23,990 nt of DNA, taken from the IMG/VR virus record IMGVR_UViG_3300030118_002996, positions 1 through 23,990 of that record. The stretch is one strand, 5' to 3'. Position 1 is the stretch's first letter. Each line of letters opens with the position of its first letter. The notes under the pieces are model-generated. The model was given only the letters and a program-made list of their open reading frames with translations, was not told the origin of the DNA and did not search any database. Shown here one piece after another: positions 7,823-9,519 of this stretch. Both the position numbers and the translations under genes were made by a program. Origin of the DNA: a virus.

Positions 7823-8590
7823 TTAAAAAGGGGTGTTTTTGGGTTTACTAAATGTAGGTGCTTTTCTTGTAGCTGTCAATAAATATTGCTCATATTGACC
7901 ATTTTTGATCCAGCGGTGGGCATCACTGAATAAAGGAGTAAACTTATCAGCCTTAAGTGACTTTCTTCTGGCTCTTATATCGGCCTCAAGGCAGCCTTTA
8001 AGTTTATCCCTTGTCTTTGTATCTAATTTCATAAATTCGTTATATGCAAGCTTTTTTGACAGAGATATAGTTCTCATATCTTTTGGAATTTCTAAATAAG
8101 TTTGCCAGAAAGAATTAAAGCTTTTATTTTTATAGTTATTTGTTTTAGTTATATTGTTTTTCTTAGGGTGTAGCTGTGACACCACCCCAGTCTTTGTCTG
8201 ACACCCCCCTAGTGTCTGTGTGATACTACCCCCGTTTCTCTCTGACACTACCCCAGTTCCTGTAAGATACCCCCCTGTAAAAGTAGGATCTTGAACTGGT
8301 AATGCCTTGCATTGACTCCAGATTGTTACTCTATAGCAGTTTGTTTTCTGGTTATGCTCATCAATCCTATATTGCTTTTGCAATAGTTTTAACTCAACTA
8401 ATTCATTGACAGTTCTAATTACTGTAGATCTGGACATCATTGCATCCTTAGCAATAGTGGCATAACTGGGCCAAATGTTTGGATAATAACTTTGAAGAAC
8501 CCAAAGAACCATTAGCTGATGTGGTGTTACCTTTCCTTTTAAAGATGATGGAAGTGCTATAAATGGTGTATTTTCTGGTATAAAACTCAT
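7823..8590 (-). CDS. Replication initiator, lambda O-like (winged-helix N-terminus)
   Basis: 255 residues. Residues about 20-90 form a helix-turn-helix region of the helix_turn_helix_36/RepA-O type: VTPHQLMVLWVLQSYYPNIW, PSYATIAKDAMMSRSTVIRT, VNELVELKLLQKQYRI. Residues about 100-150 are a Gly/Thr/Val-rich linker (TGTGVVSERNGGSITQTLGG) whose DNA carries five 22-bp tandem repeats. Residues about 155-240 are helical and basic with an SLSKKLAYNEFMKL segment and the closing DAHRWIKNGQYEQYL, like the C-terminal part of phage O-type initiators. In lambda, O binds iterons located within its own gene and recruits the helicase loader; the same plan is inferred here. ATG at 8590 lies 3 bp from the divergent rusA-like start and no Shine-Dalgarno is visible. 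No helicase or loader gene is in the window. Confidence 0.72.
   Translation of the reverse strand: MSFIPENTPFIALPSSLKGKVTPHQLMVLWVLQSYYPNIWPSYATIAKDAMMSRSTVIRTVNELVELKLLQKQYRIDEHNQKTNCYRVTIWSQCKALPVQDPTFTGGYLTGTGVVSERNGGSITQTLGGCQTKTGVVSQLHPKKNNITKTNNYKNKSFNSFWQTYLEIPKDMRTISLSKKLAYNEFMKLDTKTRDKLKGCLEADIRARRKSLKADKFTPLFSDAHRWIKNGQYEQYLLTATRKAPTFSKPKNTPF
8108..8159. other. AT-rich stretch beside the iterons (putative unwinding element)
   Basis: Directly after the iteron block on its downstream side the coding strand is almost only A and T with few G/C (plus-strand TTTTTATAGTTATTTGTTTT and neighbours), encoding NITKTNNYKNKSFNS. In lambda-type origins an easily melted AT-rich segment borders the iterons, so this is the likely duplex-unwinding element if the iteron block is an origin. 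AT-richness alone is common in this genome, hence moderate confidence. Confidence 0.5.
8160..8269 (-). repeat. Five 22-bp iterons, putative replication origin
   Basis: On the minus strand T-A/G-T-C recurs at exactly 22-base steps (starting at 8269, 8247, 8225, 8203 and 8181). Each of the first four is followed about 11-19 bases later by a G-run. The shared core reads ACTGGGGTAGTGTCA with one to several mismatches per copy; the fifth copy is only half conserved. The period of 22 is not a multiple of 3, so the three reading phases are used in turn and the repeat cannot come from a repeated peptide. Selection on DNA is the simpler reading. The location inside the O-like gene between its two domains, next to an AT-rich stretch, copies the layout of the lambda origin. 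Confidence 0.75.
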
Positions 8591-8593
8591 TTT

Positions 8594-9073
8594 ATGGAAT
8601 ATTTAATAACGATCAAAGATATTGAAGCTGCACCACAGGGCAGTAAAAAATTTGTTGGCAAAAACAAGAAGGGACAACCATTGATGATTGACACCTGTAA
8701 TCGCTTGAAATCATGGCGGGATCAGGTTGGTGTTATGGCGAAGTTGTGTTGTGTGGACGGTATTATTGAAGAACCTGTAGCAATAGAAGTTACGTTTTAC
8801 TTTAAACGTCCGAAACTTCACTATGACTCAAAAAATTTATTAAAGCAAGATGCTCCAACTTATGTAACAAACAGACTTAAAGGTGATATAGATAAACTGT
8901 TACGAGGGTTACTTGATGGGCTTACTGGATCAGCATTTGCTGACGATAGCCAAGTCGTAAAAATATTTGCAGTGAAGAAATATTGTGATTTAAAATCTAA
9001 AATAACAGCAACAATAAAAATTAAAACTATTGATGAGAAAGAGAATCTCATTTGTGGCCTGTCCCGAATGTAA
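8594..9073 (+). CDS. rusA: RusA-type Holliday junction resolvase
   Basis: 159 residues. Cuts four-way junctions made during recombination or replication, before packaging. The RusA signature is clear: GDIDKLLRGLLDGLTG (about 97-112) followed by AFADDSQVVK (114-123); Asp98/Asp100, Asp108 and Asp117/118 fit the metal-binding acidic cluster. The N-terminus has the usual short strand then a P-x-G-S-K-K loop (APQGSKKF) and a hydrophobic-aromatic strand ending FKRP. The start at 8594 leaves three bases to the divergent initiator start; no Shine-Dalgarno is evident. The length is slightly above E. coli RusA because of a short C-terminal tail that overlaps the next gene. Confidence 0.9.
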   Translation: MEYLITIKDIEAAPQGSKKFVGKNKKGQPLMIDTCNRLKSWRDQVGVMAKLCCVDGIIEEPVAIEVTFYFKRPKLHYDSKNLLKQDAPTYVTNRLKGDIDKLLRGLLDGLTGSAFADDSQVVKIFAVKKYCDLKSKITATIKIKTIDEKENLICGLSRM

Positions 9074-9233: not shown

Positions 9234-9354
9234 TCGGGTGATAGATCGGCTCTTCGCATAGCCGCCCTGCTTTTCCTATGTGTTGCTTTAGGTTTTGTAT
9301 GGCTTTCAAGTTAGTACAATCCCACTTAGAAAAACTAACTATCAGGCTACCCGA
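9234..9354. other. Structured 121-bp element between convergent genes (ncRNA or terminator candidate)
   Basis: The ends pair: TCGGGT (9234-9239) with ACCCGA (9349-9354), and GATAG (9240-9244) with CTATC (9339-9343), leaving a 5-base bulge AGGCT on one side. Inside lie CGGCT/AGCCG (9247-9251/9260-9264), a weak CCTA/TAGG pair (9275-9278/9289-9292) and GTTAG/CTAAC (9310-9314/9335-9339, sharing one base with the outer stem). It fills the whole gap between the rightward zinc-ribbon gene and the leftward 54-aa gene. There is no ORF and no T-run typical of an intrinsic terminator. A small structured RNA is possible on either strand. Confidence 0.4.
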
Positions 9355-9519
9355 CTAAAGTTTGTTAAGTGCATTTTCTAAACCAAAACAAATTCTGGCT
9401 ATAATGCCAGCATCTAAATGTTCTGGAAAAGGGCCAAGTGATTTAGTAGATGGGTTTTTACTAAGAAACTGTTTAAGTTTTAAACAATCCTCAGCCCTTA
9501 GTCGCACAGATATGTCCAT
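9355..9519 (-). CDS. 54-aa hypothetical
   Basis: ATG at 9519, TAG at 9357..9355. The product MDISVRLRAEDCLKLKQFLS, KNPSTKSLGPFPEHLDAGII, ARICFGLENALNKL reads as two or three amphipathic helices, with DISVRLRAEDCLKLKQFL resembling the start of a ribbon-helix-helix or similar small DNA-binding protein. That resemblance is weak. It lies 15 bp after the 120-aa gene and is the last gene of the leftward early unit. No Shine-Dalgarno is obvious. Confidence 0.55.
   Translation of the reverse strand: MDISVRLRAEDCLKLKQFLSKNPSTKSLGPFPEHLDAGIIARICFGLENALNKL

Follow-up and report, generated by a model that had tools for sequence, protein, structure and literature searches.

Tandem palindromes within an O-like initiator gene form the probable replication origin of a marine phage

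Phage replication origins are seldom located from sequence. In the linear virus record of 23,990 bp analysed here (the window, from an incomplete genome), a regular array of repeats lies inside the gene for an O-like replication initiator, raising the question of whether this gene contains the origin at which its own product acts. Profile matches in the window include terminase, portal, RecE-like exonuclease, RusA and the O-like initiator, and the source is a marine phage with relatives among the Prochlorococcus phages, the host being assigned solely from those relatives. The initiator gene (7823–8590, minus strand) encodes 255 amino acids and matches phrog_270 'replication initiation protein' (6e-17) and Pfam HTH_36 (3e-9). 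Its relatives, with 45–98% identity, are found in viral contigs and in the Prochlorococcus phages MED4-184/P-HS2.

The divergent neighbour is a RusA-like resolvase gene (8594–9073, plus strand; PF05866, 5e-14). The start codons of the two genes stand head to head at 8590–8594 with 3 bp between them, as they do in MED4-184 and MED4-117 (5 bp), so any promoters must sit within the genes; a promoter scan near 8590–8594 yielded a single minus-strand promoter-like site, not above chance. Elsewhere in the window, TRF reports tandem arrays at 439–528 and 973–1065, outside large genes, with 34-bp and 33-bp units that have the word AGCTGTATTAT in common. The unannotated stretch 9236–9360, bounded by a zinc-ribbon ORF and by the minus-strand ORF that follows, contains a terminator-like hairpin (9247–9264), and an Rfam search that included this stretch returned no match.

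The array within the initiator gene is composed of five imperfect 17-bp palindromes of the type RGTGTC-N5-GACACY, located at 8167–8271 on the minus strand and separated by 5-bp G-rich spacers. Counted from the start codon, the units are GGTATC-ttaca-GGAACT (8255–8271), AGTGTC-agaga-GAAACG (8233–8249), AGTATC-acaca-GACACT (8211–8227), GGTGTC-agaca-AAGACT (8189–8205) and GGTGTC-acagc-TACACC (8167–8183). A preliminary description, made from the letters alone, had reported five units at exactly 22-bp steps beside an AT-rich stretch in an O-like gene. Both the step and the AT-rich border are borne out, and the interval that it gave, 8108–8269, spans array and AT-rich block to within a few bases. 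It had seen direct repeats, whereas each unit also has the palindromic form 6-N5-6, an inner gap of 5 scoring best among gaps of 0–11. TRF recovers a 22-bp unit in 3.7 copies; the array was detected by TRF and lag scans, and not by a direct-repeat search by itself.

In principle the repeats could reflect a minisatellite, or a linker peptide that is itself repetitive. This explanation would suit the variable number of units among relatives and the disorder of the linkers in the structural model, but it is contradicted at the level of the bases. At a lag of 22, 59 of 88 positions match, a score reached by none of 1000 synonymous shuffles that keep the peptide (mean 39.9, maximum 51); the bases rather than the peptide are therefore under selection. 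Similarly, when all lags of 10 to 40 are considered, none of 300 codon-order shuffles attains the observed score. Chance does not account for five sites that keep a 22-bp register. Only four other iteron matches occur in the window, each with two mismatches, which is within chance for scattered sites.

Comparison with relatives leads to the same result. A scan of viral contigs for relatives of the initiator gave 80 loci, and further scans with marine relatives gave largely the same ones. By our count from the lag table, which covers lags of 15 to 35, a lag of 22 scores highest at 77 of these loci; at the remaining three (L050, L052 and L053) it is still among the top three. Unrelated linker peptides (GG-VVS, SQGYDRESQG, TTPVVENYPPSTPQ, SQGYDRESQGVCQ and TTPVVENYPPSTPQRPPQ) are encoded on one constant 22-bp plan, RGTNNN-N5-NNNACY followed by a 5-bp spacer, in which the inner triplet is lineage-specific. 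Apart from this plan, the relatives vary: they have four or five units, and their linker peptides, reading phases, spacer strands and half-sites differ. The preliminary description had argued that 22, not being a multiple of 3, rules out a repeated peptide, and its codon-phase argument stands, since other phages have arrays of this kind in each of the three codon phases. It had also named relatives that keep the linker peptide without the 22-bp period as evidence against an origin; what is found is the reverse, relatives that lose the peptide and keep the period. A repeated peptide or minisatellite, which would in addition leave the palindromy and its covariation with the protein unexplained, is accordingly rejected, and we regard its probability as negligible.

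Arrays and codons share the same bases because the sites lie in the reading frame, and two codes are thus superimposed. Five-unit genes have steps of 22, 22, 22 and 22 bp, while four-unit genes of the same class have steps of 23, 22 and 22 bp and a linker 21 bp shorter; the loss of a unit was therefore accompanied by the gain of a single base, which keeps the frame. Coding constraint is also visible in the class C relatives (e.g. L029 and L058), where TGAC is found in unit 2 of 11/11 genes and in unit 3 of 0/11, the position at which TGA would be an in-frame stop. In distant members the lag-22 autocorrelation is weak: shuffles reach it 2 times in 1000 for L058 and 8 times in 1000 for L048, and in MED4-184 the lag-22 peak is not the leading one. 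For these three the evidence rests on the palindromes.

In most classes the spacers contain GGGG or CCCC tracts, and G-tracts recurring every 22 bp might themselves be the functional element, as a G-quadruplex or another secondary structure. The tract strand, however, flips between arrays and even within one array (CCC in class B, GGC in class C, CG in class F), and the units of phage lambda are free of such tracts. This reading is therefore rejected as very improbable.

Next to the array lies an AT-rich block (8120–8166, minus strand; codons 142–157), a candidate duplex-unwinding element. It is 81% AT, compared with 66% in the two protein domains, and contains imperfect repeats of 13–14 bp (TRF repeat 8125–8160); a block of this kind adjoins the array in every relative inspected. 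A comparison of synonymous variation along the gene, suggested in the preliminary description, gives the lowest value of the gene in the AT block (0.052) and a low value in the array (0.122), against 0.386 in the N-domain and 0.269 in the C-domain. The AT block is thus itself under selection at the DNA level.

Array and block are situated between two domains of the initiator. In the AlphaFold model (mean pLDDT 63.6), the N-terminal winged-helix DNA-binding domain (residues 23–92; 8315–8524, minus strand) is composed of helices 23–34, 43–50 and 54–66 and strands 70–76 and 82–88. Foldseek relates it, with a probability of about 1, to the DnaD N-terminal domain and to MarR-type folds (E 1e-3 to 1e-2, with no match under 1e-3), and a PDB sequence search with the initiator returned no relative; from the model, only the winged-helix class of this fold is certain. 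The recognition helix comprises residues 54–66 (8393–8431, minus strand), with the codon of Ser55 at 8426–8428. The linker that covers the array (residues 93–150) is predicted to be disordered. It is followed by a C-terminal helical domain (residues 156–241; 7868–8125, minus strand) with confidently modelled helices, which is presumed to bind a partner.

Taken together, these features make it very probable (close to nine in ten, in our estimate from sequence comparison) that the array and the AT block constitute a phage replication origin built like ori-lambda, with the iterons inside the initiator gene. The N-terminal winged helix would bind each of the five 17-bp sites in its own gene, presumably as a dimer, at a site spacing of about two helical turns. 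The assembled nucleoprotein would strain the DNA and open the adjoining AT-rich block, and the C-terminal domain might then recruit the host replicative helicase, by analogy with known systems. No helicase, loader, DnaC or P family was recognised among the scanned window ORFs, nor a helicase, loader or P homologue in the MED4-184 annotation, and the recruitment step is therefore unsupported. A DnaC or helicase gene lies next door in some relatives of the N-domain, and a neighbouring P loader gene is a trait of lambda itself and not of every O-like system. GC skew of the window and of MED4-184 gives no clear origin signal and tracks gene direction.

The array might instead be an operator or copy-control site, at which the initiator represses or handcuffs while the true origin lies elsewhere. 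Plasmid iterons serve in copy control too, the palindromes would suit a repressor-like dimer, and the fold of the initiator resembles MarR-type regulators. On the other hand, the array adjoins a conserved AT block and sits between the domains of an initiator, an arrangement that fits an origin rather than an operator, and the start codon has no other good site nearby, the remaining matches in the window being at chance level. We thus consider an operator or copy-control site unlikely and the in-gene origin the better account.

The protein and its sites are statistically linked. Among 107 unique genes, with half-sites binned into classes by our own scheme, no column outside the linker says more about iteron class than residue 55, which accounts for 0.78 of the class entropy, a value inflated by shared descent. 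The iteron class is the same as that of the nearest N-domain neighbour in 100 of the 107 genes, and as that of the nearest C-domain neighbour in 47; the N-domain and the iterons travel together, and the C-domain is exchanged independently.

Scanning viral contigs by DNA alone for pairs of GTGTC-N5-GACAC units spaced 22 bp gave 88 stretches, most of them in O-like genes with Ser usually at helix position 3. Among viral and genome-contig loci, an ORF of 90 amino acids or more covers the array at 91, and a helix-turn-helix aligns upstream at 75 of these. A prediction set beforehand, that Arg at helix position 3 accompanies GTGAC, was borne out: Arg is present in 14 of 15 independent representatives with GTGAC arrays and in 4 of 27 with GTGTC arrays (Fisher 7.5e-7; a crude similarity cut was used to separate representatives, and the value only partly corrects for descent). 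A predicted pairing of GTCGT with SRDK failed, the one lineage found being unrelated, with the helix GRQAV. Predicted prophage genes with SRST or SRSS form a minority of the 24 genome-contig matches to the GTGTC pattern (e.g. in three Novosphingobium contigs), most of which fall outside O-like genes. A tree built from the columns outside the motif shows about 13 changes of iteron label, but only four pairs lie on supported branches; about 2.8 of these agree and none opposes (p = 0.25, underpowered). Given the crude similarity cut and the few supported pairs, the link is strong as an association, and correlated evolution is not yet proven; for binding of the repeats by the initiator, the covariation offers indirect support.

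Two GTGTC-N5-GACAC units at 22 bp were also observed outside O-like genes, immediately upstream of a gene encoding a product with the sequence KAAPTTYVxxF (or KVPATHYALHF) in Myxococcus, Deltaproteobacteria, Granulicella and Acidobacteria contigs (L331, L336, L339, L340, L344 and L345), where they are perhaps the operator of an unrelated regulator.

These data raise the wider proposal, for which we see even odds, that in O-like winged-helix initiators generally a few helix residues, above all position 3 (Ser55 in the window), would form a readable half-site code pairing Ser with GTGTC and Arg with GTGAC, and that the N-domain and iterons would be one cassette moving between C-domains, letting the origin specificity of uncultured phages be predicted from sequence. 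A literature search found neither this site family nor a recognition-helix code for O proteins; subscription papers were mostly outside its coverage, and earlier reports are possible. The paired changes in helix and site amount to a natural mutagenesis series, and a joint change of specificity in initiator and origin is therefore directly testable. Our analysis indicates that an origin can be read directly from this DNA, and that the same plan recurs in many distant phages, detected by DNA pattern alone.

The closest architectural parallel is ori-lambda within gene O, as the preliminary description had proposed. In both, tandem 6-N5-6 palindromes lie between the N- and C-terminal domains with an AT-rich region adjoining, and the annotated lambda iteron TCCCTC-aaaac-GAGGGA fits the same frame. 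Lambda iterons are inverted repeats bound by O dimers, and O opens an adjacent 40-bp A+T-rich region (PMC5043065). Extra iterons lengthen O in Stx phages, which include variants with six (PMC7466680), and added iterons likewise lengthen the initiator among the relatives of the window. Given this geometry and the biology of lambda O (PMC5043065, PMC7466680), the window most likely works like ori-lambda. The two differ in half-site (TCCCTC in lambda, RGTGTC in the window), in recognition helix and in steps (20/24/23 bp from the annotated lambda starts 535, 555, 579 and 602, compared with a strict 22 bp), and a P gene stands beside lambda O. The earlier view that iterons and initiator are not recognisably those of lambda thus holds for half-site and helix but not for the palindrome geometry, which is lambda's.

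Nearer to the window in sequence, the initiators of MED4-184, P-HS2 and MED4-117 are 45–46% identical to that of the window and have the same RusA neighbourhood and AT block, but contain three iterons of the RGTTCA type, with helix CRTKV and steps of 22 and 23 bp. In the MED4-117 record (L083, 8001–8769) the initiator is annotated as two ORFs, the frame breaking in the C-domain. Plasmid iterons are generally located outside the rep gene. The P1, R6K and pSC101 origins resemble the window in having repeats that bind the initiator, are phased and adjoin an A+T-rich region. Most plasmid iterons, however, are direct repeats to which monomers bind (PMC5043065).

In cultured phages, Ayreon, AsXd-1 and PhiR49_2 (SKRSVM) have GTGCA/GTGAA units at 21–24 bp steps. 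This survey picked the best triple by similarity, so that Vibrio phages, BUCT708 and BZS1 are weak and only suggestive; MagusPhagus gave no unit triple. In the mEpimmI group, mEp554 (SKST) carries AGTGTC-N5-GACACC units with the same half-site as the window, while mEp010, mEp013 and mEp044 (SKRT), whose proteins are 73–88% identical to that of mEp554, carry GTGAC units; mEp021 (NKST) has GTGGC units. A search of the 2025 paper on this group (PMC11893012) for six terms relating to replication origins and iterons found none of them. The initiators of mEp554, mEp010, mEp013 and mEp044 show steps of 22–23 bp and an array placed as in the window, with 28–36% protein identity to its initiator and a different C-terminal part. 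The preliminary description had suggested an independent or divergent origin. Divergence is upheld and an isolated invention is not: the half-site is found again in mEp554, a phage of E. coli, and in numerous uncultured phages, so the array of the window is a divergent representative of a type that is widespread.
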